A stretch of 64,000 nucleotides of DNA. Source: an uncultured bacterium (GTDB lineage: Bacteria > Verrucomicrobiota > Verrucomicrobiia > CAIQCK01). Of this stretch, positions 37,804 through 56,645 are shown piece by piece (position 1 is the first letter of the stretch; each line of letters opens with the position of its first letter). A program made the position numbers and the translations under genes. Where the stretch lies: contig CAIQCK010000014.1 in NCBI GenBank assembly GCA_903870275.1, positions 1 through 64,000 on the forward strand, in the 5' to 3' direction. A model generated the notes under the pieces. The model saw nothing but the letters and a program-made list of their open reading frames with translations. It ran no database searches and was not told the origin of the DNA.

Positions 37804-39165
37804 CTACAAGATTTCCGAAATATCCACCACCGAAGGCAACCGGCCGCTCTTCGCCGCAACCGCCGCGGTCTTGCCGGCGGCTTCGCCCATGGCCACCGCG
37901 TTGCCGGTGACGCGATAGCTCGAGTGCGCAATGAAATCGCCGCTGATGCAACGGCCCGCCATCATCAACCCTTTCACGTCCTTCGCAATGAGCGAGCGCA
38001 ACGGAATATCGTAGGGCTTCGCGCGGAGGCCGGTCTTCTCGATGCCCTTCTCCTTCTTCGGATCGGTCGAGTGCACATCAATCCCGAACGTCGTGCGGCA
38101 CACCGCATCCTTCTGCGTGCGCCCCTCGCGCAAGTCGTCCGTATTGACCGTGTAAAGACCGTGAATGCGACGGCCCTCACGCACACCAATCTGCTCGGCC
38201 GTGGCCACGATGTGGACGTTCTTCCACGCGCCGCCGAGCGAGCGCAGACCGTCAATCAGCGCGTGCAGTTCTTTGCGCGCCCGCAGCGTCGCCGCCGTCA
38301 CGTCGTGCGCATGGGTGCCCTTCACGCCGTATTCATGGTTGGCCATGAGCGCAAACAAATCATCGCGGAGCCGGAAGATCGTCGGCTTCGCATACGACGG
38401 CGAGTGGCCGCCCTTCTCCATCTCCGCCTTAAGCCGGTCTTTTGGACCCGCCCAGTCCTTGGAGTCATCGTCGCGAAAGAACCCATCAATGCCCTCCGGC
38501 GTGACGCCCGAGATGATCGCCATCAATGAGAACGGTTGCGTGTCGCCCGTTTCCGGATGCCCCATGTCGAACCCGCATCCAGCCTGCGCGGCAAGATCGC
38601 CATCGCCGGTGCAGTCCACGAATATTTTGCCCGCAAACGCCTCCCGCCCCGACTTCGACTCCGTGATGACATGCGTCAGCCGCTTGTCGGCGTTCCTGAC
38701 AGCCGCGCAGACGCGCGTGTGAAGCTGGATTTCCACGTTGGCCTCGGCGCACATCTCCTCCAAAACGATCTTCATCACCTCCGGGTCGTAGGCGTTGGTG
38801 GCATTGCCGCTCTTGGTGAAGGCCCGGCTGCCGCGCTTCTCAATCCGGTCCCAGATTTCCGCCATCAAGCCGCTCTTGTTCTTGTAGTCGAGGATCCAAC
38901 TCAACAACCCCGCCGTCCAAATGCCGCCAAGACAGCCGTTCACTTCCAGCAGCCGCGTTCGCGCGCCCTTGCGCGCCGCCGCGACCGCCGCCGCCACGCC
39001 TGCCGGCCCGGCGCCGCACACCACCACGTCCCCATCGCCCGCGATCGGCACGTCGCGCGCCGGCTCGCAAACGACGCGGTCCACGCTGCGCGCTGACTCT
39101 TCACGCGGCGCCAGCGACACCACCGCGCCCAACCCGCCCCATCGAAGAAAGTCCCGCCGTTTCAT
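37804..39165 (-). CDS. Exported FAD-dependent oxidoreductase
   Basis: 453 residues. The Tat-like signal is KRRDFLRWGGLGAVVSL. The FAD-binding motif GAGPAGVAAAVAAARKG begins at residue 51, and the typical second signature GKIFVDCTGDGDLAAQAGCGFD follows, then the C-terminal GRCISGDFIAHSSYRVTGNAVAMGEAAG. This is the FAD_oxidored (PF12831-type) family, common in Planctomycetes and Verrucomicrobiota polysaccharide loci; substrates are mostly unknown. Its start overlaps the stop of the upstream gene by ATGA, so translation is coupled. With the neighbouring exported proteins it may perform periplasmic sugar oxidation. Confidence 0.85.
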   Translation of the reverse strand: MKRRDFLRWGGLGAVVSLAPREESARSVDRVVCEPARDVPIAGDGDVVVCGAGPAGVAAAVAAARKGARTRLLEVNGCLGGIWTAGLLSWILDYKNKSGLMAEIWDRIEKRGSRAFTKSGNATNAYDPEVMKIVLEEMCAEANVEIQLHTRVCAAVRNADKRLTHVITESKSGREAFAGKIFVDCTGDGDLAAQAGCGFDMGHPETGDTQPFSLMAIISGVTPEGIDGFFRDDDSKDWAGPKDRLKAEMEKGGHSPSYAKPTIFRLRDDLFALMANHEYGVKGTHAHDVTAATLRARKELHALIDGLRSLGGAWKNVHIVATAEQIGVREGRRIHGLYTVNTDDLREGRTQKDAVCRTTFGIDVHSTDPKKEKGIEKTGLRAKPYDIPLRSLIAKDVKGLMMAGRCISGDFIAHSSYRVTGNAVAMGEAAGKTAAVAAKSGRLPSVVDISEIL

Positions 39166-40163
39166 TTCGGATATCTGAAGTTCAAAACCCGTTCGCCGAT
39201 TGCGATCACGTCTTTCTTGTTGCAGCGCACGCCGTGATACAACAACGCCTGCGCCACCTCGCCATAATTGACGCCCTTCTCATGGCCAAGAAATTTCTCC
39301 TGCCCAAGGCCCGTGCGCGTGTTGTCGGCCACCTCCACCTCGCCCGTCGGCTTGATCCGCGCAAGCTCGCACTTCATCCCACGTTCGATGGCATTGGATA
39401 CTTTTGCATCCGGGAAATACATCGAGCGAACCTCCAGCTTCAACAACGCCACGGCCTGGTAGCTGGAATCGAAGCCGCCGCGCTCGATGAACACGCCATC
39501 CTCGCGCTGGAGCGCCAGCGCCCGCTCGATAAAATGCCGGCCGATCTCCTTCAACCGCTCGTCGCCCAGCAACAAGCCCGTCAGGGAAAACGCGTTGGCG
39601 TCGATGCAAAGCCGGTTCGGTGATTTGCCGTCCGCGTGCCGTTCCAAGTCCTCCCGGCCGTCGGCCAGGCGCTTTGCCGCCAGCCGGATCTTCGGCATCA
39701 GTCCCGCGATACGCTCCTTGAACTTTGCGCCGAGCGGACTCTCGCGTAGCACCAGCAGCCCGTGACTCAGTTCGCACAGCCAGAAGGCGCTGTCGCTCGT
39801 GTAATACCACGGCTTCAGCTCCTGACCCGGCTCGGACGGCTTCAACTCGAAACTCCCGTCCGCCTGTTGATGTGCGAAAGCCGCATCAATCGCCCGCCAT
39901 GACTCGGCGACAAGCCGCTCGTCGTTCCGCACGGCGCCCACGATCAGCGGCAGCATTGCGCCGCGCTGCAACGACACGCCCGTCCAGCCCAGCCGGTGAT
40001 TCGAGCCGACCAGCCCGTTTGCATCCGGCGCGCCGCCGAGCTTCACGAAACGCGCAACCACCTCCGGTGGCAGCTTCTTCAACTGTTCGAAGCCCGACGC
40101 CAGCGCCGCCTGCGCGGCGACGCATGCCCAGAGCCCCAATGCGATGACCCAATACTTCTTCAT
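39162..40163 (-). CDS. Exported alpha/alpha-toroid-like hypothetical protein
   Basis: 333 residues with a signal peptide (YWVIALGLWACVAAQAALA). The mature sequence is helical with repeated tryptophan- and tyrosine-containing segments (WRAIDAAFAHQQADGSFEL, KPWYYTSDSAFWLCELSHGLLVLRES, REDGVFIERGGFDSSYQAVALLKLE), as in (alpha/alpha)6 barrels of polysaccharide lyases, unsaturated-uronidases and terpene-cyclase-like folds. No catalytic pair can be assigned with confidence. It overlaps the FAD oxidoreductase gene by 4 bases. A lyase or glycosidase role is plausible from fold and context only. Confidence 0.65.
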   Translation of the reverse strand: MKKYWVIALGLWACVAAQAALASGFEQLKKLPPEVVARFVKLGGAPDANGLVGSNHRLGWTGVSLQRGAMLPLIVGAVRNDERLVAESWRAIDAAFAHQQADGSFELKPSEPGQELKPWYYTSDSAFWLCELSHGLLVLRESPLGAKFKERIAGLMPKIRLAAKRLADGREDLERHADGKSPNRLCIDANAFSLTGLLLGDERLKEIGRHFIERALALQREDGVFIERGGFDSSYQAVALLKLEVRSMYFPDAKVSNAIERGMKCELARIKPTGEVEVADNTRTGLGQEKFLGHEKGVNYGEVAQALLYHGVRCNKKDVIAIGERVLNFRYPK

Positions 40164-40213: not shown

Positions 40214-41134
40214 CTATGGGTTCTGCTTCCGGAACGTCTCGTAGAGTTCCACCGCCTTCTCATCCGTCGTCTCGCCACAGATCATCAGCCGCGACTTCGC
40301 CTCGACCGACTCGCCATTCTTCAGGTCGCGGCCGAACAGCGAGAAATAGAGCGAGCGATGGCCTTCATCGTCCTGCGGGCAGGCAATCGCAAACGCATCC
40401 TCCGCGCGCGTCATCAGCACCGCCGCCAGCTTGCGCTCCGCATCGCGGCGGATCGCCAGCGGCGCGGCCAGCTTCGGTCGGATGGTCCACTCGACCGGGT
40501 TCGGCGGCCGTGTCCAGCGACCGTCCTGAATTATTTTCACCACCGCCTCGTCGCGCGGGAACATGTGCCACTTGGCAACCTCCTTCGACGCGCTGACAAA
40601 CGCCGGTTTGTCGCCCGCATAAACGACCGTTTGGGGAAAGCCGTCGAAATACGACGCAAGGAACACCTCGAATCGTTTCAGTTCCTTGCGCGCCGTCACG
40701 CGCGTCGTCAGGTCCAGCGCGTTCGCTGCCGACCAGCGATAGACCGCCATCATGTCGAACGGATGCGCGTCGTCCGCCGTCCAGCGCACCTCCACCGCGC
40801 CGTTGTCCAGCAGCTTCGCCTCGCTGGCCCAATCCCACCCCGCCTTGCCGTAGCGGTTCGTGTCGTCGAGCAGGCGGTAGTGCGAGAACAAGCCGAGCGA
40901 TTTCGTCAGCGCCGCGCCGCTCGCGCAATCGAACGCCGGGATCAATCCCTTGGACTGTCCCCCGCCGCGCAACGTGCCGCGGAGCGCGCCGGTGTCGAAG
41001 GTGAACTCCTTGCCCGCGGCGACGAAGCCCAGTTTATTTTCCGCCGCCATCGCGCGCATCACCGCGCCCGATGTCGTGGCAGCGAGTGCGCTGCCGATGA
41101 ATTGCCTGCGGGAACAGCCATTGGTTTTTCTCAT
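40214..41134 (-). CDS. Tat-exported hypothetical protein
   Basis: 306 residues. AAGGAG lies seven bases upstream of ATG 41134. Tat signal: SRRQFIGSALAATTSGAVM. The remainder is beta-rich (FTFDTGALRGTLRGGGQSKGLIPAFDC, GWDWASEAKLLDNGAVEVRWTADD, LDLTTRVTARKELKRFEVFLASYF), suggesting a galactose-mutarotase-like or jelly-roll sandwich. No family is recognised. It is 41 bases downstream of the DUF1080 fusion gene and 50 bases before the toroid gene, within the same run. Confidence 0.65.
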   Translation of the reverse strand: MRKTNGCSRRQFIGSALAATTSGAVMRAMAAENKLGFVAAGKEFTFDTGALRGTLRGGGQSKGLIPAFDCASGAALTKSLGLFSHYRLLDDTNRYGKAGWDWASEAKLLDNGAVEVRWTADDAHPFDMMAVYRWSAANALDLTTRVTARKELKRFEVFLASYFDGFPQTVVYAGDKPAFVSASKEVAKWHMFPRDEAVVKIIQDGRWTRPPNPVEWTIRPKLAAPLAIRRDAERKLAAVLMTRAEDAFAIACPQDDEGHRSLYFSLFGRDLKNGESVEAKSRLMICGETTDEKAVELYETFRKQNP

Positions 41135-41175: not shown

Positions 41176-42828
41176 CTACTTTGCCGGCAGCAGCAGAATC
41201 TTGATGTTCGCGAAACAGATGTCGCCGTGATCGCCTTGCAGCGCGATGTGACCTTTGCTGTTTTTGGCAAACTTCGGCCACTTCACAAACTTGCTCGCGG
41301 CCACCCGCTGGTTGAAATCGTCGCTGCCGATTTCGAATTCGCAATACTTCACGCCGTTCATCCAATGCTCCACGTGCGGGCCGCGGTAAACGATTTTGAC
41401 GTGGTTCCACTCCCCGACCGGTTTGGTGGCGTCCTGCGGCTTGCCGGTTTGCGGGTCAACGGGCGGCTGGTAGAGCGCGTAGGCCCAGCCGGATTTTTGC
41501 GAATCGCCTTTCGGGTCGGTGTTGTCGAGAAGCTGGTATTCGATGCCGGTGAACGGCGCGCGCTTCTCGTCCTCGCTCACGCGGGGCATGATGCCGCTGT
41601 TGGCGTGCGGCGGCACTTTGTAGTCCAGTTCGAAAATGAAGTTGTCGAACTCTTCGGTGGTGATGATGTCGCCAGCCGTCTTGTCCACGCGGCAGAGCGC
41701 GCCGTCCATGACCTGCCAGCCCTGCGAGATCGTCTCCTTGCCGAAGTTGCGCCAGCCGGTGGTGGTCTTGCCGTCGAAGAGCAACTTCCACCCGGCGGCT
41801 TTTTCGGCGTCGGTGAGCTGATTGAGGTTTGGCAAAACCGAAGCGGGCTGGCCGACTGGCTTCGCCGTCGGCGATGCGGACGACCCGGCGGCGGACGCGC
41901 AGACGCCGCCCATCGGATGATGGCTGACGGCGTCCCAGGCCAGCTCTTGCAGCAGGCGATTGAGTTTCCCCTTCTCGTCCTCGCTCAGGTCTTTCATCTT
42001 CGCCAAATCGCCGGCCACCGGCAGGCCGACGGGACTGCGGCGATAGATCACCGCGAAATGACAATAGCCGTCCAGCACTTGCAGGGGCGGTGCAGGATGG
42101 CCCCAAGGGTCGCGGAACAAATCCCACTGCTTCATCAGCCCCGGCGCCTGGCCGGCGACGATCTTCTCGCGCAACGCCACCGCAGCCTGCCCGACCGGCA
42201 CGGTGACAATCACGTCCTTGCCAAGCCGTTTGTTGATGTCGCGGCAGTATTCATCCATGTCGTGATCATACCGCGCCTGGGCCTTCCGCAACTCCGCGAG
42301 GTCCGTGGCATCGTGGTCCACCTTCGGCGTCTTGCGCGTCTGCAACGGATAGACCGGCACATACTCGTCGTTGGGCAGCCAGAATTCCTGGACCGTGACC
42401 CGGAAGTTCGGGTTGTGGACCAAGCCCAACTTCGCAAACTTCTCGATGCCTACGTCGGGCAGCCAGATGGGCGAGAGCGTGAGCACGTCCACTTTGCCGG
42501 CGCTCAACGCGGCCTTGCATTGGTTCTTCTCTTCCGCCACGTCCCAATGCTGGTAGACCCGCGAGCCGCCGATGCCCGAGTAACCGACGGATTGATGGTC
42601 CGCAATGCCCGCCGCCTTGGCCATCTCGCCCACGATGCGATAAACGAACGCGTGAAAACTGTGCGCGCATGTGAACATGCGCTGGCCCGCCGTAATGGGC
42701 GCGACAGGCTGGTCAGTTTTTTCGCTCGCGCGGCCAGCCTGCAACGGTGCCAGCAGAAGGCCGGTCATTACGGCGACGTGAAGAGCGGTCGTTCTCAGGA
42801 GGGAGCCGGATCGGGTTTGTCCAAACAT
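41176..42828 (-). CDS. Exported fusion: SGNH-hydrolase-like domain plus DUF1080 (3-keto-glycoside-cleaving) domain
   Basis: 550 residues with a signal peptide (ALHVAVMTGLLLAPLQAGRA). The N-terminal half (about 45-310) contains FTCAHSFHAFVYRIVGEMAKAAG and VGYSGIGGSRVYQHWD, a pattern like SGNH-fold proteins of the DUF4886 type, but the nucleophile motif is altered (CAHSFH). The C-terminal part (about 345-548) is a clear DUF1080 domain: AAGWKLLFDGKTTTGWRNF, WQVMDGALCRVD, FIFELDYKVPPHANSGIMPRV, EWNHVKIVYRGPHVEHWMNGVKYCEFE. DUF1080 proteins cleave 3-keto-glycosides in the recently described oxidative glycan pathway. It heads the run after the TIR gene. Confidence 0.85.
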   Translation of the reverse strand: MFGQTRSGSLLRTTALHVAVMTGLLLAPLQAGRASEKTDQPVAPITAGQRMFTCAHSFHAFVYRIVGEMAKAAGIADHQSVGYSGIGGSRVYQHWDVAEEKNQCKAALSAGKVDVLTLSPIWLPDVGIEKFAKLGLVHNPNFRVTVQEFWLPNDEYVPVYPLQTRKTPKVDHDATDLAELRKAQARYDHDMDEYCRDINKRLGKDVIVTVPVGQAAVALREKIVAGQAPGLMKQWDLFRDPWGHPAPPLQVLDGYCHFAVIYRRSPVGLPVAGDLAKMKDLSEDEKGKLNRLLQELAWDAVSHHPMGGVCASAAGSSASPTAKPVGQPASVLPNLNQLTDAEKAAGWKLLFDGKTTTGWRNFGKETISQGWQVMDGALCRVDKTAGDIITTEEFDNFIFELDYKVPPHANSGIMPRVSEDEKRAPFTGIEYQLLDNTDPKGDSQKSGWAYALYQPPVDPQTGKPQDATKPVGEWNHVKIVYRGPHVEHWMNGVKYCEFEIGSDDFNQRVAASKFVKWPKFAKNSKGHIALQGDHGDICFANIKILLLPAK

Positions 42829-42864: not shown

Positions 42865-43917
42865 TTACGCGTTTGCGGCTGTTTCGATTCTCCCGCAGAT
42901 GGCGACCCAAGCTGAATCCCGTTCGGCCTTCATTTCAGCGAGGGCCTTATCAGGCGGGAAGGCTGCTTGATAAGCCTCTAGCTGTGTCCTTCTCCAGTTG
43001 CAGTTGCGGACGAGAACCCAGAGGATTGTCACTCCTCCATTCGCGGCATCCTTCAGCAACGGGCCGAGCTCGTGCTCATGAATGAAGTCGGATGCAAGGA
43101 AATTTTGTGTGACGAGCAGCACCGCCACCTTCGTTGCGGCCAAAGCTTTTTTGATTTCGGCGAACGACTGCGAGCCAGGTTCAATCTGCGTGTCCGACCA
43201 CACGATGACGCGATCCGCACGCTCCAAGGGTTTCAGGTGAGCGCGCAACTCATCGAGGAACTTCGTGTCTTTGTGGCTGTAGCTGACAAATACTTTGTTT
43301 CGTTTGATGGTCGGCATGGTGAGTTTCGGTTCGTGGGCGTTGTTCTTAGCAGTTGCTTCGGATGAAGCATTCAAGATTGGAGTCACGCCAGATTGAATGC
43401 TTCCGCCGGCCTCAATGCTGCCACCGGCTCTCACGGAGCCTGCGGTTTGGATGTTTCGCCCCGCTCGGATGCTGCCACCAGCCGAAATACTTGGAGTTGG
43501 CTGATCTTGGCTTGCATCAGCACCACTAGAATTCGAAATGGCATGTCGGTCGTTTGCATCAATGCGTTCTCTGAACAATCTCTCCCATTCCTCAGCACGT
43601 ATAGCATACTGGGCACGAAACAGAGTTTGTTTTGAAGGCGGCTTCTCATAGACGCCAGGATCTGGATCGCTATACACATCGAGCCAGCCAAGCGACTCGC
43701 CCAAGAGCACCTTTTCTTCAATGGAAAACGAGGCAGCCGCCTTATGATGGAACACTGGGTGTCCATTCTCATCGGCATACTCTCTGGTGAACAACCCACA
43801 GAGAGACTTAGCCAGTGATTCCCCTTTGACTTTGTAGAAGACGGTTGAAGTCGATTCTTCGTGCTGTGTCGCGCCAGTTGAGGCAAACAGGTAGAAAATG
43901 GATTCTGATTCTTTCAT
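42865..43917 (-). CDS. TIR-domain protein with hexapeptide-repeat linker, putative defence effector
   Basis: 350 residues. Residues 207-345 form a bacterial TIR domain: KVFVSYSHKDTKFLDEL, IVWSDTQIEPGSQSFAEIKKAL, VAVLLVTQNFLASDFIHEHEL. Glutamates E281 and E283 lie where TIR NADases carry the catalytic glutamate. Residues 143-178 contain six glycine-rich hexapeptides (SISAGG, SIRAGR, NIQTAG, SVRAGG, SIEAGG, SIQSGV), which could form a short beta-helix that oligomerises. Residues 1-120 are unrecognised and may be a sensor. No signal peptide. The DNA is visibly AT-richer than its neighbours, suggesting acquisition. It has no ribosome binding site of its own and starts one base after a 33-codon upstream frame. 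Confidence 0.85.
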   Translation of the reverse strand: MKESESIFYLFASTGATQHEESTSTVFYKVKGESLAKSLCGLFTREYADENGHPVFHHKAAASFSIEEKVLLGESLGWLDVYSDPDPGVYEKPPSKQTLFRAQYAIRAEEWERLFRERIDANDRHAISNSSGADASQDQPTPSISAGGSIRAGRNIQTAGSVRAGGSIEAGGSIQSGVTPILNASSEATAKNNAHEPKLTMPTIKRNKVFVSYSHKDTKFLDELRAHLKPLERADRVIVWSDTQIEPGSQSFAEIKKALAATKVAVLLVTQNFLASDFIHEHELGPLLKDAANGGVTILWVLVRNCNWRRTQLEAYQAAFPPDKALAEMKAERDSAWVAICGRIETAANA

Positions 43918-45150: not shown

Positions 45151-45185
45151 GAGTTATGAGTTACCAATTACCAATCACCAATCAC
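45151..45185. repeat. Five tandem heptads, CAATCAC type
   Basis: GAGTTAT, GAGTTAC, CAATTAC, CAATCAC and CAATCAC follow each other and run into the stop codon of the epimerase gene (45182-45184). It is a second 7-bp tandem repeat besides 31734-31775. Confidence 0.7.
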
Positions 45186-46042
45186 TTCTTCCCCAGCCCC
45201 TTGAGCACGCCGCGCATCCACGCGACGCTGGCCTTGGTGTTCTCGTCGGAGCCGTGGCACTCGATGGAGACCGCGCCGCTCCACTTGGTCTTGTGGAGAT
45301 ACTCCATGCACTTCTTGATGTTCTCGGCGTTGACGCCGCCGCCAACGGGGACGACGGAGCTACCGATGCCGGTCTCCTCGCCGCGGACGGCGGCGGCCAG
45401 TTCGGGCGCGACGTCCTTGATGTGGAGATGCGTGACGTAGGGGCGCAGGGTCTTCAGATACTTCAGCGGGTCGTGGCCGGCGATGAAGCTGTTGCCGGTG
45501 TCGAAGTTGCAGCGCAGATACTCGGAGTCGAAATGCTTGAAGAGCTTGAGCATGAAGTCGGGGTCGTTGGTGTAGGGGCCGTGCGGCTCGATGTTGATGA
45601 CGATCTTGTAGTCCTCGGCCCACGACAGGCATTGCGCGTAGTTGTCGCAGGTGACGCGGAAGACCTCGGCGCGCGTCATGCCCGGCGTCTCGAACGCGCC
45701 GTCCACGGTGTCCACCATCGGGCAACCCACGTCCGCGGCGAAACGGATGCTCTGCTGGACGTATTGGACGCCGTAGGAGGAACCGTTCGGCCCCATCATC
45801 GGATAGGAGCCGTCCAACTGCGTGACGTCCATGCCTTTCTTGTCGAGGTAGTGCCGCAAGGCGAGCGGGTTGGATTGGAGCGAGATGCCGGGGTCGTAAC
45901 CGAGCGCCTGAATGAAGTTCTGGCCGTGGATGACGGCGAACTCGACGTGTTTGACGCCCACGGCGGCGATCTTGTCGCACGCGGCTTCGAAGCTCATGCT
46001 CAGCGGCCGCCAGTTGTCAGTGTGAAGTCCCAGTTGGATCAT
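45182..46042 (-). CDS. Xylose-isomerase-like TIM-barrel sugar isomerase/epimerase
   Basis: 286 residues. ATG 46042 has AAAGGAG upstream. The fold is the AP-endonuclease-2-like barrel. Metal ligands are recognisable: Glu in VINIEPHGPY, Asp in NFDTGNSF, His in THLHIKD and Glu in VSIECHG. Such enzymes epimerise or isomerise free or 3-keto sugars, and appear together with Gfo/Idh/MocA dehydrogenases. No signal peptide, so it is cytoplasmic. It is the last gene of the coupled run HNH-ThuA-sulfatase-Gfo/Idh/MocA-epimerase, 36 bases behind the oxidoreductase. Confidence 0.88.
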   Translation of the reverse strand: MIQLGLHTDNWRPLSMSFEAACDKIAAVGVKHVEFAVIHGQNFIQALGYDPGISLQSNPLALRHYLDKKGMDVTQLDGSYPMMGPNGSSYGVQYVQQSIRFAADVGCPMVDTVDGAFETPGMTRAEVFRVTCDNYAQCLSWAEDYKIVINIEPHGPYTNDPDFMLKLFKHFDSEYLRCNFDTGNSFIAGHDPLKYLKTLRPYVTHLHIKDVAPELAAAVRGEETGIGSSVVPVGGGVNAENIKKCMEYLHKTKWSGAVSIECHGSDENTKASVAWMRGVLKGLGKK

Positions 46043-46078
46043 GTTCGTTCTCCTTTGTTGGTTGATTCGATTGCGGTC

Positions 46079-47314
46079 TTAAACTTTCAGTCCGGTCAGG
46101 TCATACTCCAGAGCTTTGTTTTCCTTGATCAGCTCGTCCATCGTCAGGCAACAACGGCGCGCGCAGGCCTCGCGTCCGAGCGCGGCGGTGAGCGCATCGT
46201 CGCCGGCCTGCTGCGGCGTCGGGTTGTCGAAGCGGCCGTTAACGATGTTGTCGTAGAAGGTCGCGATGTTGCGGATGGCGCCCTGGTCGTAAAGGCTCAC
46301 GACCTCGCCACCGCCGTAATGCTTCGGGCCGCCGCGCAGGTAGGATTTGCCGCGGTAGCTGACGAGCGCGGTGGCGACGGTCCCGTAGGCGTCGAGTTTC
46401 AGCGCCCAATCGAGCTGGTTGCGCAGCGACTGGCAGCGGTGCGACCAGAGCAAGCCGTCGTCGAACTCGTAGGTGACCAGATAGACTTCGCGGAACTCGC
46501 CGCGCGGGTTGGGCCGAACGACGCGCGTGCGGCCGATGGCGCTCACCGGGCGTTTCCCGACGACCCAGAGCACGGCGTTGATGGAGTGAACGGTGTTCTC
46601 GGTGATCACGTCGCCCGAGAGCGCGGTGGTGGCCAGCCACCAACGCAGCCGGTCCTCGGCGGTCTTGATCGGCGGCTCGCCCCAAGGCGGCGAGAAGCCG
46701 AGGCTGTCAATGTGCCCCAGTTTGCCGAGGCCGCCCTCATGAATGCGTTTGACGACCTCGATGTTGATTGGGTCGGTCCACATCTGGTAGTCCACGAGGT
46801 AACAGAGCTTTTTCTCCGTCGCGAGCTTGCCGGAGCCCTGGACCTTGAGCGCGCCCGGCACGTCCACGGCCACCGGCTTCGCCGCATAGACGTGGCAGCC
46901 GGCTTCGATGGCCGCGCGGCCGTGGTCGGGATGAAAATGCGGAACGTTCACCACCGTCACGGCCTCGACGCCGCTTTCGAGGAGGCGCTTGTGGGCGCTC
47001 AGGCCCGAGAATCGCCGCGCCTTGTCCACCCCGAACTTGTCGCCGGCTTTCTCGGCGCGTTCGGGGAAATAATCCGCCACGGCCCGAATCTCATAGCCGC
47101 CGTGTTTCATAAACAGGTCGCCGAGCCACGAGCCGCGCCCGCCGCAGCCGATGAGGCCGAGCTTGATCTTGCGCGCGAACTCCTTCGGTTTCGCCTCGCT
47201 GGCGGGCGCGTCCGCGGCGGCGGCCGACAGCGTGTCGAGCACGGTCGCCGATGCGCCGACGGCAAGCGTGCCGCCAAGAAATTGGCGGCGGGAATAATCA
47301 CGTTGATCGTTCAT
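46079..47314 (-). CDS. Tat-exported Gfo/Idh/MocA-family oxidoreductase
   Basis: 411 residues. The start overlaps the sulfatase stop by ATGA, and AAGGAG lies upstream. Tat signal: SRRQFLGGTLAVGASATVL. The Rossmann motif is LGLIGCGGRGSWLGDLF. The usual EKP landmark appears as YAAKPVAVDVPG, so the glutamate is replaced while the catalytic-region lysine is kept. DVITENTVHSINAVLW belongs to the C-terminal domain. Sugar dehydrogenase activity with bound NAD(P) is the likely role. The Glu change is noteworthy but not unusual in this subgroup. Confidence 0.87.
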   Translation of the reverse strand: MNDQRDYSRRQFLGGTLAVGASATVLDTLSAAAADAPASEAKPKEFARKIKLGLIGCGGRGSWLGDLFMKHGGYEIRAVADYFPERAEKAGDKFGVDKARRFSGLSAHKRLLESGVEAVTVVNVPHFHPDHGRAAIEAGCHVYAAKPVAVDVPGALKVQGSGKLATEKKLCYLVDYQMWTDPINIEVVKRIHEGGLGKLGHIDSLGFSPPWGEPPIKTAEDRLRWWLATTALSGDVITENTVHSINAVLWVVGKRPVSAIGRTRVVRPNPRGEFREVYLVTYEFDDGLLWSHRCQSLRNQLDWALKLDAYGTVATALVSYRGKSYLRGGPKHYGGGEVVSLYDQGAIRNIATFYDNIVNGRFDNPTPQQAGDDALTAALGREACARRCCLTMDELIKENKALEYDLTGLKV

Positions 47315-48853: not shown

Positions 48854-49651
48854 TCACGGCACCGGGGACTTGCCGGCGGCCCACGCGGTGCCGCGGCGGA
48901 AGAGTTCGAGCACGGCCGGGTTGAACGCCTTCACGTCGTGGCCGAGCGGCGAGTGAAAGATGCGGCCCTTGCCGACGTTCATCACGAACGCCATCGGATG
49001 ATCCTTCTTGTCTATCTTCGAAGTGGCCTTCGCGAGCACTTCGATGGACGGGTCACCCACCAGACACGTGTAAAGCTCGTCGTCGGTGTCGAAGTCCTGC
49101 AACCCTTTCATGATCGGATGATCGGGCTGGGCGATCTCGACCTTGAACGGCCCGCGCGGGTCGTGACCGCGCAGTTTCGGGTTCCAGACGCGGCCGGCGA
49201 GATTCACGAACCCCGGCCACTCCTGCCACGCGCCGCATGCAAAATGCACCAGCACCAGGCCGCCGCCGTTCTCGACAAACCGTTTGAGGTTCGCGCGCGC
49301 CGCCTCGTTCGGCCCCGGCGTCTTCCAGTTCATGTAGTGCAGGACCACGACTTGGTAACGATCCAGCGCCGTCGAGTCGAGAAAGTGCGCGTCCTCGATG
49401 ACGCGCACGTCGGCGCGCGGGTCTTCGCGCAAACCCTGCGCGAGCACCGGCGCCGTCAGCGGCCATTTGTGGCCGGGATAATCGCAGCCGGTGACCAGCA
49501 GCACCTGCATCGGTTTCGGCACCGCCGCCGGCGGGCCGGCATACGGATAGCCGTCGGAGGATTTGGAGTCCGCAGCGAAGAGTGGCGATGAGGTTGTGGC
49601 TATGCCGATGAGGATGGTCAGTGCGATGACCTTAGCGAGTTGTGTTTTCAT
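48854..49651 (-). CDS. Exported ThuA-domain protein
   Basis: 265 residues with a signal peptide (VIALTILIGIATTSSPLFA). ThuA-type glutamine-amidotransferase-like fold: MQVLLVTGCDYPGHKWPLTAPVLA, YQVVVLHYMNW, ENGGGLVLVHFACGAW, DDELYTCLVGD, MNVGKGRIFHSPLGHDVKAF. It is the second ThuA protein in the window, only distantly similar to that at 30748. Its start overlaps the HNH stop (ATGA) and its stop nearly abuts the sulfatase start, so this is a tightly coupled run. A role in metabolism of 3-keto sugars is inferred from family context. Confidence 0.87.
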   Translation of the reverse strand: MKTQLAKVIALTILIGIATTSSPLFAADSKSSDGYPYAGPPAAVPKPMQVLLVTGCDYPGHKWPLTAPVLAQGLREDPRADVRVIEDAHFLDSTALDRYQVVVLHYMNWKTPGPNEAARANLKRFVENGGGLVLVHFACGAWQEWPGFVNLAGRVWNPKLRGHDPRGPFKVEIAQPDHPIMKGLQDFDTDDELYTCLVGDPSIEVLAKATSKIDKKDHPMAFVMNVGKGRIFHSPLGHDVKAFNPAVLELFRRGTAWAAGKSPVP

Positions 49652-50367
49652 AATGATGTTTGGTTGCGTAATGCCTCGGCCATCAGAGATTTCAGTTCAC
49701 CAACAGAGCGAGGTGGATTAGATGAGTGGAGCATGGCATGGCAGTTGGGACAGACTGGGATCAAATCCTTCATCGGATTCAAGTTATAGACTTCTCGACT
49801 TGATAATAGTCTCAAATGATGAACGTGGATGAAATCTTTCCCGATTCGTCCATATCGTTGCTCAAAGTTCATCAAACAAACGGCGCATGTTGTCCCGTGA
49901 CGTTGAATGCATTCTCGTCTTGCCTCAGGGTCACGTTCGTAGGCGTTGACTTTGACTTCTCGAACGGCACCAGTGACATAGTCTTTTCCTTCGGGCAGCG
50001 TCTCGGGATGAATAGCTTCGGGCGGGAGTTGGACACGTTCGGGAAACAACGATTCCAACTCGGTGCGATGCTGTTCATGGCCTGCGATGGTTAGAAGCCT
50101 GCACCGCAGTTCAGTCGGATCCCCGGCTAGCCAAAGCTCCACCAATTTGTCAAATCCCGCCGCATCTAAACCAAAACGCCGAGCACATGCGTCCTGAATG
50201 GAATTAAGAGCCGATATGCGATTCCGAAATCGCCCAGCGGAAAGCTCGTTCTCAGCGACGCTATGCACCGCCCCAATGCGGAGAGACGTTGCGTCTCCGC
50301 CAGATGCAGCGCGTCTTGAATGGATCGCTTGAAGCACGGCCAACAAATCTTGAATGAGCGATCTCAT
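49648..50367 (-). CDS. HNH endonuclease (McrA-like), putative defence nuclease
   Basis: 239 residues. The C-terminal nuclease is complete: zinc knuckle C161-x2-C164, the HNH core H181-V-H183-H184-L, N197, and C206-x2-C209-H210 with H214. The run EGKDYVTGAVREVKVNAYERDPEARR before it matches the widespread HNH group often found as stand-alone or restriction-type nucleases. The N-terminal 110 residues are unassigned. The GC content is visibly lower than in adjacent genes. Its stop overlaps the ThuA start (ATGA). No methyltransferase is adjacent. The ribosome binding site is poor (GGGAG about 13 bases upstream). Confidence 0.85.
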   Translation of the reverse strand: MRSLIQDLLAVLQAIHSRRAASGGDATSLRIGAVHSVAENELSAGRFRNRISALNSIQDACARRFGLDAAGFDKLVELWLAGDPTELRCRLLTIAGHEQHRTELESLFPERVQLPPEAIHPETLPEGKDYVTGAVREVKVNAYERDPEARRECIQRHGTTCAVCLMNFEQRYGRIGKDFIHVHHLRLLSSREVYNLNPMKDLIPVCPNCHAMLHSSNPPRSVGELKSLMAEALRNQTSL

Positions 50368-50438: not shown

Positions 50439-51740
50439 TCAGATCAACTTCGTCACACCGGGCACATAGACGGGATACGTGCCGTCCGGTCCCTTCTCCA
50501 CCGGCGGCTTCATGTCCAGGCGGCAGTCCTCGCACTTCGGCGCGTAGGCAAAGTCGGACTTGTTGATCTGATCCCATGTCACCTCGGCGCCGGTGTAGCA
50601 ACTGATCTGGCCCATGATGCCGACCATCGTGCTGCGGGCCATGTAATCGCCATTGTTGATGGTCTTGCCGTCGCGGATGGCGCCGAACAACGCCCGATGC
50701 TCGGCATCATAAGGATCCGCCTTGCCTTCATACTTCCACTTGGTCTCGCCCTCGATCTGGCAGCGAGTCAGGTCGCAGCGGCCCTTGCTGCCGAGGATGA
50801 TGCTGGAGACTTCGTTGTAGCAACGGACCTCGGTGCGGCAGAACGCATAGGCCCGCACGCCGTTCTTATAGTAGTAGATGACCGAGTGGTGGTCGAAGGT
50901 GTTGCCGTATTCCTCGCTGAACGACGATGAGCGTCCGCCGAGGCCGTGGCATTTCAAGGGCGGCGTTTCATTGAGCGCCCACGTCGCGCGGTCCATGTTG
51001 TGGACGAGCGACTGCGGCACGTCGTCGCCGCTGAGCCAGACGAAGTGATACTGGTTGCCAAACTGGCTTTGCACCTCGGTCCAGCCGGGCTGGCGGTGAT
51101 AGACACCGTAGGGCGCGCGCAGGAAGTTTTCCTCGATGGAAACTATGTCGCCAATGGCGCCATCGTGGATGCGCTTCATCGTCTCGATGTAACCGTCGTG
51201 ATAGCGGCTCTGGAGGCCGGAGACGACGCAGAGGTTCTTCTGCTTGGCCAGCTCACACGCGGCGGTGAGCGTCTTGATGCCGTGCGGATCAATGCCGTGC
51301 GGCTTCTCGACGAAGACGTGTTTGCCAGCCTGCACGGCGGTCATCGCGTAGAACGGATGGAACTTCGCGGCGTTGGCAATAAGCACCACGTCAACCGCTT
51401 CGAGGACGCCCTTGTAGCCATCCAGCCCGTCGAAACAATGCGCGTCGTCCACCTGCACCTGCTCGGGTTTTTGTTTCTTAAGAACCTCCAGCTTCCCTTT
51501 GACGCGATCCATGAAGATGTCGTGGATGGCGACAAGCCGCACGTCGGGGCCGGAATTCATCGCGTTGGCCGCCGCGCCGGTGCAGCGTCCGCCCGCGCCG
51601 ATCATGCCGATTTTGATGATGCCGCTGCCCGCGGCGTGCGCGGACCGGCTGATGTCGAGAGCGCCGACGGCGACAGCCGAGACGGCGGCGGTGGAGGTCT
51701 TGAGAAATTGGCGGCGGGTCTGTTGGTTTTCGATGCTCAT
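50439..51740 (-). CDS. Tat-exported Gfo/Idh/MocA-family oxidoreductase (paralogue A)
   Basis: 433 residues. ATG 51740 is preceded by AAAGGA. Tat signal: TRRQFLKTSTAAVSAVAVG. Rossmann motif: IKIGMIGAGGRCTGAA. The EKP landmark is HVFVEKPHGIDPHG, with DIVSIEENFLRAPYGV and CHGLGGRSSSFSEEYGN in the catalytic domain. C-terminal cysteines (APKCEDCRLDM) may bind metal. By eye it is highly similar over its full length to the next gene upstream (51784-53097), so the two are tandem duplicates 43 bases apart. Presumed periplasmic sugar oxidoreductase. Confidence 0.9.
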   Translation of the reverse strand: MSIENQQTRRQFLKTSTAAVSAVAVGALDISRSAHAAGSGIIKIGMIGAGGRCTGAAANAMNSGPDVRLVAIHDIFMDRVKGKLEVLKKQKPEQVQVDDAHCFDGLDGYKGVLEAVDVVLIANAAKFHPFYAMTAVQAGKHVFVEKPHGIDPHGIKTLTAACELAKQKNLCVVSGLQSRYHDGYIETMKRIHDGAIGDIVSIEENFLRAPYGVYHRQPGWTEVQSQFGNQYHFVWLSGDDVPQSLVHNMDRATWALNETPPLKCHGLGGRSSSFSEEYGNTFDHHSVIYYYKNGVRAYAFCRTEVRCYNEVSSIILGSKGRCDLTRCQIEGETKWKYEGKADPYDAEHRALFGAIRDGKTINNGDYMARSTMVGIMGQISCYTGAEVTWDQINKSDFAYAPKCEDCRLDMKPPVEKGPDGTYPVYVPGVTKLI

Positions 51741-51783
51741 GGGATTTTCCTTTGAAGTGTGATGCGAGAAACGCGGTACGCGA

Positions 51784-53097
51784 TCAGATGAGTTTGGTGG
51801 CGCCGGGAACATAGACGGGATAGGTGCCGTCGGGGCCTTTCTTGGTGGGCGGCTCCATGTCCATGCGGCAGTCTTCGGGTTTGACGGGGAAATGAAAGTC
51901 GGACTTGCAGATCTGGTCCCAAGTGACTTCCGCTCCGGTGTAGCAACTGATCTGGCCCATGACAGTCATCAGCGTGCTGCGGACCATGTAGTCGCCGTTG
52001 TTGATGACCTGACCTTTGCGCAAGGCGTCGAAGAGCACCACATGCTCGTGGCCGTGCGGCTCCGGGGCATGGCCTTCATACTTCCACTTATTCTCGCCCT
52101 CAATCGTGCAGCGCATCAGGTCGCAGCGGCCTTTGGAGCCGAGAATGATGCTGGAGTATTCATTGTAGCAGCGAACCTCCGTCCGGCAAAAGGCATAGAC
52201 CCGCACGCCGTTGGCGAACTGGTAAACGACGGAGTGATGATCGAAGACGTCACCGTGTTCCTCGCTGAACGACGATGCGCGTCCGCCGAGGCCGTGGCAC
52301 TTGATCGGCGCTTGTTCGTGCAACGCCCACGAGGCACGGTCCATGTTGTGGACAAGCGACTGCGGCACGTCGTCGCCGCTAAGCCAGACAAAGTGATACT
52401 GGTTGCCGAGCTGGCTCTGGAGTTCCGTCCACCCCTCCTGCCGGCGATAAACGCCATAAGGCTGGCGCAGGAAGTTCTCCTCGATGGCGACGATGTCACC
52501 AATGGCGCCGTCGTGAATGCGTTTGATCGCCTCCTGGTAACCGAGGTGATGGCGACTGTGGAGACCGGAGGCGACACAGAGTTTCTTTTGCTTGGCCAAT
52601 TCGCAAGCCCTGGCCATCATCTTCAAGCCATAAGGATCAATGCCGTGCGGCTTCTCGCAAAAGACGTGCTTGCCGGCTTCGATGGCGGCCAGGGTGTGGA
52701 GCGGGTGGAACTTCGCTGCGTTGGCGATGAGCACCACGTCGCTGGCCTCGATGACGCCCTTGTAACCGTCCAGTCCCTCGAAGCAGTTCGAGTCCTTCAC
52801 CTGCACCTGTTCGGGCTTCTGCTTCTTGAGCACCTCCAGCTTTCCTTTGACGCGGTCCATGTGGATGTCGCAAGCCGCGACGAGCCGCACGTCGGAGTCG
52901 GCATCCATGGCATCTTTGGCCGCGCCAGCACAGCGACCGCCCGCGCCGATCATGCCAATCTTAAAAACACCGCTGCCGGCCGCGTGCGCGGAGCGCTCGA
53001 TGGACAGGCTGCTGGCGGCCGCTACCGCGGTGGCGGTGGTCTTGAGAAACTGGCGGCGGGTTGGCTGAACTGCAACTGGCTGGGTTTGGCGTTCCAT
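51784..53097 (-). CDS. Tat-exported Gfo/Idh/MocA-family oxidoreductase (paralogue B)
   Basis: 437 residues from ATG 53097; an in-frame GTG at 53136 lies upstream of the operator-like site and is less likely. Tat signal: TRRQFLKTTATAVAAASSL. Rossmann motif FKIGMIGAGGRCAGAA and EKP landmark HVFCEKPHGIDPYG. The two-cysteine C-terminal motif of paralogue A is reduced to FPVKPEDCRMDM. It follows the TetR gene by 41 bases, and the gap contains a partial copy of the TetR palindrome, so it is probably under the regulator's control. The pair may oxidise and re-reduce the same type of sugar. Confidence 0.9.
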   Translation of the reverse strand: MERQTQPVAVQPTRRQFLKTTATAVAAASSLSIERSAHAAGSGVFKIGMIGAGGRCAGAAKDAMDADSDVRLVAACDIHMDRVKGKLEVLKKQKPEQVQVKDSNCFEGLDGYKGVIEASDVVLIANAAKFHPLHTLAAIEAGKHVFCEKPHGIDPYGLKMMARACELAKQKKLCVASGLHSRHHLGYQEAIKRIHDGAIGDIVAIEENFLRQPYGVYRRQEGWTELQSQLGNQYHFVWLSGDDVPQSLVHNMDRASWALHEQAPIKCHGLGGRASSFSEEHGDVFDHHSVVYQFANGVRVYAFCRTEVRCYNEYSSIILGSKGRCDLMRCTIEGENKWKYEGHAPEPHGHEHVVLFDALRKGQVINNGDYMVRSTLMTVMGQISCYTGAEVTWDQICKSDFHFPVKPEDCRMDMEPPTKKGPDGTYPVYVPGATKLI

Positions 53098-53102
53098 GGC
53101 GT

Positions 53103-53120
53103 CTATACTCTCCGGTATGG
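53103..53120 (-). promoter_or_regulatory. Second, partial TetR-site-like sequence
   Basis: The half CCGGTATGG is identical to the operator at 53772-53789; the other half matches in 5 of 9 positions. It sits 6 bases upstream of paralogue B and might be a weaker binding site. Confidence 0.4.
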
Positions 53121-53138: not shown

Positions 53139-53747
53139 TTACGCGGCTCTGGCGGCGGGTTTTCCGCAGCCTAAAATCTCCAAGAGGCTCTTCACAATTT
53201 CGCTTTCCTCGCGGGGCGAACAGATTTGCGGCTCGAACATCGCGCGCAGCTTGATGCCCTCGATGGCTTCGAGCATCAGGTTCACGGCGCGCTCGGGGTC
53301 GTCAATTTTCATTTGGCCGGACAACGCGGCGGCTTGCACGAGCCCCATGTAAAATTCCCGCACGCTGTCGTAGAACTGCCCCCAGCCGCGCCGCACTTCC
53401 GGGTCGCGCAGCGACAGGCTCCAGATGTCCATCGTAAACACGCGGTTTTCTTCATCGAGCAGGCAGATTCTCACCGAACGACGCAACGCCCGCTCCAGCC
53501 GCTTCAGCGGATCGCGGACCGGCGCGATCTCGGCGTTCATCTGGCGGTGGGTGTTTCGATAGTAGTGAACGCAGGCGGCCTTGATGAGTTCGTCCTTGGA
53601 TTTGAAATGCCAATAAACGCTGCCCTTGGTCACGCCGGCGTGCGAGGCCACCTGGTCAAGGCTGACGTTGGCGATGCCGTGACGCGAGAACATGGTGAAG
53701 GCGCTCTGCGCCAACCGCGCGGGCATTTGAGGAGAAGTTTTCGCCAT
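53139..53747 (-). CDS. TetR/AcrR-family transcriptional regulator
   Basis: 202 residues from ATG 53747 (MAKTSPQMPARLAQ). The upstream extension to 53798 is rejected because it would run through the operator and the -10 box. The N-terminal helix-turn-helix is typical: AFTMFSRHGIANVSLDQVASHAGVTKGSVYWHFKSKDELI-like order at residues about 17-57. The C-terminal ligand domain is helical (ALRRSVRICLLDEENRVFTMDIW). An 18-bp perfect palindrome lies between its -35 and -10, so it probably represses itself and, by proximity, the two oxidoreductase genes downstream. The ligand is probably a sugar-derived metabolite or aglycone; this is inference. Confidence 0.92.
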   Translation of the reverse strand: MAKTSPQMPARLAQSAFTMFSRHGIANVSLDQVASHAGVTKGSVYWHFKSKDELIKAACVHYYRNTHRQMNAEIAPVRDPLKRLERALRRSVRICLLDEENRVFTMDIWSLSLRDPEVRRGWGQFYDSVREFYMGLVQAAALSGQMKIDDPERAVNLMLEAIEGIKLRAMFEPQICSPREESEIVKSLLEILGCGKPAARAA

Positions 53748-53770: not shown

Positions 53771-53798
53771 ACCATACCGGCCGGTATGGACAAGTCAA
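53771..53798 (-). promoter_or_regulatory. Predicted promoter of the TetR gene
   Basis: Minus strand: TTGACT (53798-53793), a 16-base spacer and TATGGT (53776-53771). The operator covers most of the spacer and part of the -10. Confidence 0.6.
53772..53789 (-). promoter_or_regulatory. TetR autoregulatory operator (18-bp perfect palindrome)
   Basis: CCATACCGGCCGGTATGG is perfectly symmetric and lies 25 bases upstream of the TetR start. It fills the space between the predicted -35 and -10 elements, the classic placement for a TetR-family autorepressor. Confidence 0.8.
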
Positions 53799-53843: not shown

Positions 53844-56576
53844 TTACCGCGCGGCCTTGGCGACGAAATGATACCCACCGGATCCCACCTCCACCACCGT
53901 GCAGCCGCCTTCGCTTCGTAGAATCTTCACGCACGCCGCCTTGTCGAGCGGTTGGCCGTCCTCGGTGATGCTGGCGGCGCTCTTCGCGGGAATGAACACC
54001 ATGGCGGTGGTGTTTGCGGGAATCGTCACATCGAGAACGAACCTCTCCCCCTCGCGTTTCCAGTCGCTGGCGATCCTTCCGTGCATGGAGTCGTGGCTGG
54101 CGCGCACCCATTTCAAATCGCCGACGGCCGCGGGATGGATGATGATCTTCTTGAATCCAGGCGCGGACGGATCGGAACAAATGCCGGCCAGCGCCTCGTA
54201 GAACCACGCGGAAACGTCGCCAAACATGATGTGGTTGAGCGACGACTTGCCCTCCCAATCCTCCCAGAGCGTCGTCGCGCCGCGCTTGATCCAGTTGCCC
54301 CAGCTTGGCGCGGTTGTCTGCGAAGCGACGGTGTAAGCCACGTCGGCGCGGCCGTTGTCGGTGAGCGCGTGCAGAAGGTATTTCGTGCCGAGAATGCCGC
54401 AATCCAAATGACCTTCATGAGCGGCGACGTTCGCCACGAGATTGCTGACGACACCGGCGACGTTCTGCGGCTCCACCAGTCCTTGATAGAGCGCGCAGCT
54501 CAGCGCGGTCTGGCTGCCCCCGCCGTATTGCTTCGTCTGCGGATCGAAGAACGCGCGGTTGAAAGCCTTCCGGATGCCGTCGGCCAGCGCGGCGTAACGC
54601 GCCGCGTCGTCTTTTTTGCCGAGCACCGCGGCGATCTTCGAGACAATCATCGCGTCGGCGTAATAGTAACCGGTGGAAGTGATGTTGACGGGCGTTTTCG
54701 TTTTCGCCGGACACCAGTCGCCGAGACCGATGTTGACAATACCGTTGGCGGCGCGGCTTGTCAGGTAGTCCACGTAAAGTTTCAGACGGTCGTAATGCTC
54801 GGCCAGAATCCGCCGGTCGCCGCGATACTCGTAGAGATACCACGGGATCAGGACGTAGGCCGAATCCCACGCGGGGCCGTTGCCCCATTTATAACCCCAT
54901 CCGCCGGTCGGCACGATGCCGGGCAACTCGCCGCTGGATCTCTGCTCGTCGTGGAAGTCGCTCATCCATTTCGTGTAGGACGCCGACGGCTCGAAGTTGT
55001 AGAGGCCGGCCTCGGCCGCAAGGTGCGCGTCGCCAGTCCAGCCGTTCTTTTCGCGGTGCGGGCAGTCGGTCGGATGTCCGTGGAAATTGTTGACGTAGGA
55101 CCATCGCGTGCAACGCTGGATATCGTTCAGCAGTTCGTTGGAACACTCGAAGCTGCCTGTGCTCTCCAGATCGGTGTGCACCGCCAGCGCGCTCAGGCTG
55201 GCCGGCGTCGGCTTGCCCGGGAAGCCGGTGACCTGCACGTATCGGAAACCGCTATAGACGAATCGCGGCTGCCATACTTCGTCGCCCGCGCCTTTGAGAA
55301 TGTAGCGGTCCACCTGAAACTCGCCGTCGTAGGTGTGCTCCTTGATCTTTTTCTGGTCCACCGTGCCGTCGGCGTTCAACGACTCGCCATACAGGAGCGT
55401 CACGGTCGTGCCGGCGGGACCGCGGACGTTGAGTTGTGCCACACCCGCGATGTTCTGGCCGATGTCAAAGACAAACACGCCCGGCTTCGGTTGCGTGAGC
55501 GCTACGGTCTTCAACTTCTGCGTTGCGCGAATCGGCCGCGCCATCTGCGCGGAGAGGATTCCTTTCGGCGCTTCGACAACCTGGGCTGCGATCCAGGTTT
55601 TGTCTTTGTAACCCGCCGTGTCCCAACGCGGCATCTCCAGCCGTGCGTCATAGGTTTCGCCATTGAGCAGCGCGTTGGAAATGATCGGACTGGTGGCAAA
55701 CTTCCACGTCTCGTCGCTGACGATGGTCTGCGTCGTCCCGTCGGCAAACTCGACCGCCAGTTGCAGGATCATCCTCGGCCGGGCGCGCCACGCCGCCTCG
55801 TCGAAATACCACGCGGCGTCCACCGTGTAGTTGAACCAGCCGTCGCCGAGAATGACGCCGAGGGCATTGGCACCAAGCATCAGTTGTTTTGTCACGTCGT
55901 AGGTGACGTAAAGCGCGCGCCGGTCGTAGCGCGTGAACGCCGGGTCGAGCACATGGTCGCCCACCTTTTTTCCGTTGAGCCGCAACTCATAGTAACCAAG
56001 GCCACAGATGTAAACCGTCGCGCGCCGGACCGGCTTATCGACGCGGAACGCCTTTCGAAACATCGGTGCGGGTTCCTCCTTCTTGTTCTTCGTCGCAAAC
56101 TCCGCCGCCGTCGGCGAGCCGATCCATCGGCCCGTCCAGTCTTCCGGCTTCAGCAAGCCCATCGTCCACGACGCCGGCTCGCTCCAGGAGGACTCGCGTC
56201 CATTGCAATCCCACACGCGCACTTTCCAAAAAGCTTTCGTCCCCGACGCCAGCGGCTTGCCGGCATACTCGATCTGAACGCTCTCGTCCGAAGCCACTTT
56301 GCCGCTGTCCCAGAGGTCGCCCTTGTCCTTGGCAAGATTGTCCATCGCTGACGCGACGAGAATCCGATACGCCGTCTGCTTCTGGCCGCGCGTTGCCGAT
56401 TCCATGACCCAGCTCAATCGCGGCTGGGGCACGTCGATGCCGCGCGGTTTGACAAGGTATTCACAACGGAGGTTGGTCAGCGTCGGCGTCTGATCGGCAG
56501 CGGCGATGCCAGCGCCTTGCAACAATGCCAAAACACTCGCGACTGCCACCAGGGTCTTCACTGTTCGTGAGTTCAT
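53844..56576 (-). CDS. Exported GH78 alpha-L-rhamnosidase
   Basis: 910 residues from ATG 56576, with a signal peptide (VKTLVAVASVLALLQGAGIAAA). GH78 order is intact: N-terminal beta-sandwich (NLRCEYLVKPRGIDVPQPRLSW, AYRILVAS), rhamnosidase N domain (MFRKAFRVDKPVRRATVYICGLGYYELRLNG), then the (alpha/alpha)6 barrel. The catalytic segment HGHPTDCPHREKNGWTGDAH carries the general acid glutamate. A C-terminal beta domain (WVRASHDSMHGRIASDWKREG) closes the protein. It hydrolyses alpha-L-rhamnosides by inversion. Together with the GH106 gene it points to a rhamnose-rich substrate. Confidence 0.92.
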   Translation of the reverse strand: MNSRTVKTLVAVASVLALLQGAGIAAADQTPTLTNLRCEYLVKPRGIDVPQPRLSWVMESATRGQKQTAYRILVASAMDNLAKDKGDLWDSGKVASDESVQIEYAGKPLASGTKAFWKVRVWDCNGRESSWSEPASWTMGLLKPEDWTGRWIGSPTAAEFATKNKKEEPAPMFRKAFRVDKPVRRATVYICGLGYYELRLNGKKVGDHVLDPAFTRYDRRALYVTYDVTKQLMLGANALGVILGDGWFNYTVDAAWYFDEAAWRARPRMILQLAVEFADGTTQTIVSDETWKFATSPIISNALLNGETYDARLEMPRWDTAGYKDKTWIAAQVVEAPKGILSAQMARPIRATQKLKTVALTQPKPGVFVFDIGQNIAGVAQLNVRGPAGTTVTLLYGESLNADGTVDQKKIKEHTYDGEFQVDRYILKGAGDEVWQPRFVYSGFRYVQVTGFPGKPTPASLSALAVHTDLESTGSFECSNELLNDIQRCTRWSYVNNFHGHPTDCPHREKNGWTGDAHLAAEAGLYNFEPSASYTKWMSDFHDEQRSSGELPGIVPTGGWGYKWGNGPAWDSAYVLIPWYLYEYRGDRRILAEHYDRLKLYVDYLTSRAANGIVNIGLGDWCPAKTKTPVNITSTGYYYADAMIVSKIAAVLGKKDDAARYAALADGIRKAFNRAFFDPQTKQYGGGSQTALSCALYQGLVEPQNVAGVVSNLVANVAAHEGHLDCGILGTKYLLHALTDNGRADVAYTVASQTTAPSWGNWIKRGATTLWEDWEGKSSLNHIMFGDVSAWFYEALAGICSDPSAPGFKKIIIHPAAVGDLKWVRASHDSMHGRIASDWKREGERFVLDVTIPANTTAMVFIPAKSAASITEDGQPLDKAACVKILRSEGGCTVVEVGSGGYHFVAKAAR

Positions 56577-56645
56577 GCCGCCGATTCTAAAAGACACGAC
56601 TCCGGGCGTCCACAACGATAGTGCCTCGAAACGGGCGAGTCGTTG

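Follow-up and report, generated by a model that had tools for sequence, protein, structure and literature searches.

A TetR-family regulator with two predicted operators at a putative sugar-oxidation operon in Verrucomicrobiota

The window, the whole stretch of 64,000 nucleotides analysed here, encodes on its minus strand a TetR-family regulator of 202 residues (53139-53747 with the stop codon, 53142-53747 without). The protein combines a TetR_N helix-turn-helix (HTH) domain (PF00440; 57.3 bits against a Pfam cut-off of 24, 1.4e-15) with a BetI-type C-terminal domain (PF13977; 6e-07, 30 bits), and its predicted structure is an all-helical TetR fold (pLDDT 90.6; TM 0.81 to 4nel/4ich). Downstream on the same strand lie Gfo1, a Tat-signal Gfo/Idh/MocA oxidoreductase of 437 residues (51784-53097, reading from the ATG); its tandem paralogue Gfo2 (50439-51812 as the longest open reading frame, the true start being probably downstream); a ThuA-domain protein (48854-49651; PF06283, 8e-32); Gfo3, a third Tat-signal Gfo/Idh/MocA oxidoreductase (46079-47314); and a xylose-isomerase-like TIM barrel (45182-46042; PF01261). 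A protein with a C-terminal 3-keto-disaccharide hydrolase domain (41176-42828, minus strand; PF06439, 3.4e-47) is a putative further member of the operon. A gene at 42865-43917 has a TIR-like C-terminal part (FVSYSHKDTKFLDEL...) preceded by a glycine-rich repeat stretch, as judged by eye, and two proteins at 40214-41134 and 39162-40163 lack a Pfam match, the former having relatives near the TetR operon in genomes G001, G002 and G028 (42% identity in G028).

The regulator appears to belong to an undescribed subfamily. It reaches none of the named NCBIfam equivalog models (BetI, ScbR, AcrR, MtrR and others), the best score being 60 bits against a cut-off of 280, and the literature searched, which comprised open-licence papers, yielded no description of the subfamily, the operator or the two-site layout reported below. 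Orthologues were identified in 13 of 384 genomes of the class, spread over five families, and their distribution is therefore patchy. The recognition helix motif GVTKGSxYWHF is nearly invariant down to 53% identity: among 13 sequences with 53-88% identity to the window protein, G38-V-T-K-G42 and Y45-W-H are invariant and S43 is nearly so. Named contigs with close orthologues are labelled Verrucomicrobia, with the exception of one labelled Methylacidiphilum (DYDC01000204.1, a contig of G004; locus L095). At this locus the start of the TetR gene resembles that of G006, with 100-base windows reaching 94%, and the sequence from about 600 bases onwards, comprising the end of the TetR gene, the gap and gfo, is mostly 86-100% like G003. 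Either two lineages have recombined here or the assembly is chimeric, and the gfo frame at this locus is apparently broken, being recovered by tblastn in three pieces.

The promoter of the TetR gene consists of a -35 element, TTGACT (53793-53798, minus strand), and a -10 element, TATGGT (53771-53776, minus strand), separated by a 16-bp spacer that, in the minus-strand reading, is filled by the perfect 18-bp palindrome CCATACCGGCCGGTATGG. This palindrome (site 1; 53772-53789, no strand assigned) is the predicted primary operator, and its right half overlaps the -10 element and supplies five of its six bases. The initial annotation had described a TetR operator at this place inside the promoter; its coordinates are exact, and the same pattern in the promoters of orthologues supports the predicted function. 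All orthologues that have an upstream region retain TTGAC, the -35 element matches consensus at five to six of six positions in all loci, and the spacer measures 16 bp in nine of the 12 loci.

A perfect 18-bp palindrome is by itself unremarkable, with some 0.2-0.35 expected per 64 kb by our estimate, and the half-site CCGGTATGG occurs at genome background (28 matches, against 27 for the control). Site 1 stands above chance because of its position together with its conservation. The full palindrome is present in a single copy in the 7.1-Mb genome, where the next best sites have three mismatches, near control level. The motif CCATAC-N6-GTATGG occurs once each in seven of 11 orthologue-bearing genomes, always in this promoter, with no control matches. 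When promoter and operator were combined into the pattern TTGAC-N4-CCATAC-N6-GTATGGT, seven exact matches were obtained in the 384 genomes, all seven at promoters of TetR orthologues, while the same pattern lengthened by one spacer base, used as a spacing control, gave a single match, away from these loci. Four matches carry one mismatch; two of these lie at TetR orthologues (G004, G005), and the remaining two (G178, G235) have no related TetR gene within about 1.5 kb. The left arm CCATAC lies in the promoter spacer, on which a promoter by itself places no sequence constraint, and yet its columns hardly vary, carrying 1.2-2.0 bits each compared with 0.4-1.2 for the central ones. The constancy of the operator arms matches the near-invariance of the recognition helix. 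Together, single-copy specificity and conservation rule out a chance palindrome. A wider regulon was also rejected: across four members of the genus, only a few sites with one mismatch turned up at other places, these are not common to the genomes and remain near control level, and no further sites conserved among genus members were found. Additional matches at window position 62912 and at G002:C8:303633 both fall inside apparent coding regions. Taken with a second copy, described next, that related species likewise keep, the arrangement is very probably a genuine switch of a conventional type that turns the predicted sugar-breakdown operon on and off.

A second predicted operator (site 2; 53103-53120, no strand assigned) lies in the gap that runs from the TetR stop codon to the ATG of gfo1, the leading gene of the tandem Gfo/Idh/MocA pair, and reads CCATACCGGAGAGTATAG on the minus strand. 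It matches 11 of 12 arm positions and contains the half-site CCGGTATGG at 53112-53120, so that the recurrence of the half-site ahead of the oxidoreductase pair, as initially annotated, is confirmed in position. The absence of conservation at orthologous loci had been named as grounds for abandoning the operators; we looked for such conservation and found the sites kept. For site 2, a dyad near or beyond the TetR stop codon is retained in 11 of 13 orthologous loci, or 12 with one marginal case, which supports the predicted second operator ahead of the oxidoreductase genes. It takes the form CATACCGGAGAGTATAG in the genus and G004, CATACCGCCAAGTATAG in G006, CCATACCCCTCGGTAGAG in G005, CCGTACTGATCAGTATGG in G041, CCGTACCAACCAGTATGG in G317, CCATACTCAAAGGTATTG in G302 and CAATACCACAGGGTATGG in G052; in G002, G005, G028 and G052 it does not follow the annotated TetR frame but overlaps its final codons. 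When compared with dinucleotide-shuffled sequences, 11 of the 13 loci gave P <= 0.009 and G028 was marginal (P 0.03), whereas in G016, where the TetR-gfo gap measures about 10 bp, the site is absent. Site 2 is hence not indispensable. Six of the 13 loci belong to one family and carry near-identical strings that are not independent, and independent support comes from G005, G006, G041/G317, G052 and G302. The site is also kept where the next gene differs, namely a pseudopilin-like gene in G041 and G317 and thuA in G302, and because it is kept ahead of other genes it follows the regulator and not the gfo sequence.

The role of site 2 can be read in several ways. Its TATAGA, which matches the -10 consensus well and which the genus shares with G004 and G006, could belong to a second regulated promoter driving the gfo genes separately. 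We regard this as unlikely, given that no conserved -35 element is found at spacings of 15-19 (three to four of six matches), that distant loci have TATGGC or TATTGC in place of TATAGA, and that the genus ATG would fall at or near the transcription start. It is rather improbable that site 1 is the sole functional operator, with site 2 being a leftover or an accidental product of the ribosome-binding site GGAGAG and the bases beside it. GGAGAG, which may double as the ribosome-binding site of gfo1, does lie about 10 nt before the gfo ATG in the genus, and site 2 is imperfect and missing from G016; yet G006 has the site (GCATACCGCCAAGTATAG) without GGAGAG, followed by a separate ribosome-binding site, a good dyad precedes other genes in G041, G317 and G302, and the shuffle test speaks for the dyad in the great majority of loci. 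Phase-locked DNA looping between the two sites is not supported, as their distance ranges from 631 to 701 bp across loci (about 670 bp in the window) with differing helical phase. The varying distance and phase and the lack of a conserved -35 element favour a roadblock or auxiliary operator, which is most likely what site 2 represents, rather than a second promoter or a phased loop.

The core partners of the regulator across orthologous loci are one or two Gfo/Idh/MocA paralogues, ThuA, a third Gfo/Idh/MocA protein and the PF01261 TIM barrel. The same cast appears in a new order in G302 (TetR-ThuA-TIM-Gfo), and G028 presents TetR-Gfo-ThuA fusion-TIM, with the fusion and the TIM barrel assigned by tblastn and by eye; in these two distant loci, as in the window, Gfo/Idh/MocA and PF01261 genes are direct neighbours. 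The initial annotation had proposed a self-contained unit. It is local, in keeping with the absence of further conserved sites in the genus, but larger than the two Gfo genes, since it probably runs past Gfo1 and Gfo2 to ThuA, Gfo3 and the TIM barrel (45182-47314 for the last two). The run of conserved partners is broken in the window by two other genes, one HNH-like and one for a sulfatase, and transcription as one operon is therefore an assumption. Unrelated small genes occupy the gfo2-thuA gap, with a weak HNH-endonuclease match at 49648-50367 in the window and a gene resembling REP/IS200-type transposases in G006 and G003 (L094:10286-10732; L103:11074-11556), as if the gap were an insertion hotspot. 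The tandem paralogues Gfo1 and Gfo2 (50439-53097) are both present in G001 and G002, G003 retains only a Gfo2-like copy, and the single gfo gene of G006 and G005 is closer to Gfo1, a distribution that suggests duplication followed by differential loss.

This gene content points to oxidative glycoside breakdown as the function of the predicted operon. The Gfo proteins score well below the glycoside 3-dehydrogenase equivalog NF058561 (49 bits for Gfo1 and Gfo2 and 23 for Gfo3, against a cut-off of 750). Rhizobial ThuA and ThuB act on 3-keto disaccharides. On account of this precedent, of the partner genes and of the Agrobacterium tumefaciens operon compared below, we adopt as a working model that the regulator answers to a sugar or glycoside, perhaps in an oxidised form. 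The earlier proposal that it senses a sugar-pathway intermediate is thereby backed by association, through the conserved Gfo/Idh/MocA, ThuA and xylose-isomerase-like TIM barrel genes. Rhamnosides are a weak guess as substrate, because the GH78 rhamnosidase that is the immediate upstream neighbour (53844-56615) is kept in the genus only and was not found beside other TetR orthologues. Sensing of a toxic compound or drug in the manner of AcrR, TtgR or SmeT, with a detoxifying operon, is a doubtful alternative: the best sequence matches among solved structures do include SmeT (2.8e-12), TtgR and AcrR, but inspection of the neighbourhoods revealed no recognisable efflux pump, the partner genes belong to sugar-enzyme families, and the fold neighbours are mixed, with BetI-like entries first, one of them choline-bound.

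From the geometry of site 1, its single-copy specificity, the conservation of both sites, the near-invariant helix and the partner genes, all of which are present in the sequences themselves, we infer a model of how the regulator binds and represses, which genes are cotranscribed, what site 2 does and what kind of ligand acts. A TetR dimer would bind the palindrome between the -35 and -10 elements of its own promoter and keep RNA polymerase off the tetR-gfo1-gfo2-...-thuA-gfo3-TIM-barrel operon, repression being favoured over activation because the site sits inside the promoter spacer. Site 2, just before gfo1, would block read-through into the catabolic genes or let them be derepressed stepwise and independently of tetR, and a small molecule handled by the operon, probably a sugar or glycoside or an oxidised form of one, would bind the C-terminal domain and release the repressor. 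We assign this reading, an autorepressing TetR with an auxiliary or roadblock second operator and a sugar or glycoside as inducer, a probability of roughly 0.8. That the palindrome is instead a structural or mobile element (REP, cruciform or terminator), as a perfect inverted repeat might be, has a negligible probability, given one copy per genome always in the same promoter, no T-run, and conservation of the arms but not of perfect palindromy.

Autorepression by a TetR protein whose regulon is local is a conventional mechanism; the apparent novelty lies in the subfamily, hitherto undescribed, in its layout of two operators and in the sugar-oxidation operon predicted to go with it. A more specific version is offered as a tentative possibility: the signal sensed by this Verrucomicrobial subfamily would be an oxidised (3-keto) sugar or glycoside, and the operon under its control would cleave glycosides oxidatively, with one operator occluding the promoter and the other acting as a roadblock to read-through into the enzyme genes. 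The locus provides a precise, testable predicted regulator-operator pair in a phylum with few operators worked out, tied to a poorly understood set of Tat-signal Gfo/Idh/MocA, ThuA and TIM-barrel genes, and the inducer of the regulator would be a possible route to the substrate of the operon.

TetR, TtgR, SmeT and BetI are autoregulated repressors with a palindromic operator overlapping their own promoter. The window regulator shares their fold, HTH and promoter-overlapping palindrome, but it is accompanied by sugar oxidoreductases in place of pumps or betaine genes, and a second predicted operator follows the repressor gene. BetI-like proteins are its nearest folds, at 18% identity, and the BetI equivalog TIGR03384 is not reached (54.1 bits against a cut-off of 201.3). 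UidR/GusR, a TetR-type glucuronide repressor, shows that glycoside catabolism can be under the control of a TetR protein; matches to it are weak (UidR, E 9.6e-05; GusR, rank 48 in the fold search, 19% identity), and operon content is unrelated and identity low.

The half-site resembles that of the ArpA/ScbR/CprB group, for which the CprB/ArpA consensus DNA is ACATACGGGAC*GCCCCGTTTAT, 22 bp long (PMC4150764). Compared with the window palindrome CCATACCGG, their ATAC half-site cores stand 4 bp further apart (22 bp versus 18 bp). The ScbR/ArpA model NF041196 matches weakly (7.9e-15; 55.5 bits against a cut-off of 150), the match to CprB is confined to residues 7-74, and no butyrolactone synthase was recognised in the TetR neighbourhood; half-site spacing and profile score rule out membership among the ScbR/ArpA gamma-butyrolactone receptors. 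In the HTH of the related protein CprB, K43, Y47 and F48 were mutated as base contacts (PMC4150764), and K, Y and W of the window motif stand at apparently the same places, as compared by eye without alignment. A parallel in gene content is the GlycDH operon of A. tumefaciens, in which glycosides are cleaved by oxidation-elimination and a Gfo oxidoreductase is encoded with two sugar-phosphate-isomerase-like proteins (PMC10628242). Both operons pair oxidoreductases, including a Gfo enzyme, with TIM barrels of the sugar phosphate isomerase/epimerase type, whereas in the putative operon described here ThuA and Tat-signal Gfo proteins are conserved together with a TetR regulator.
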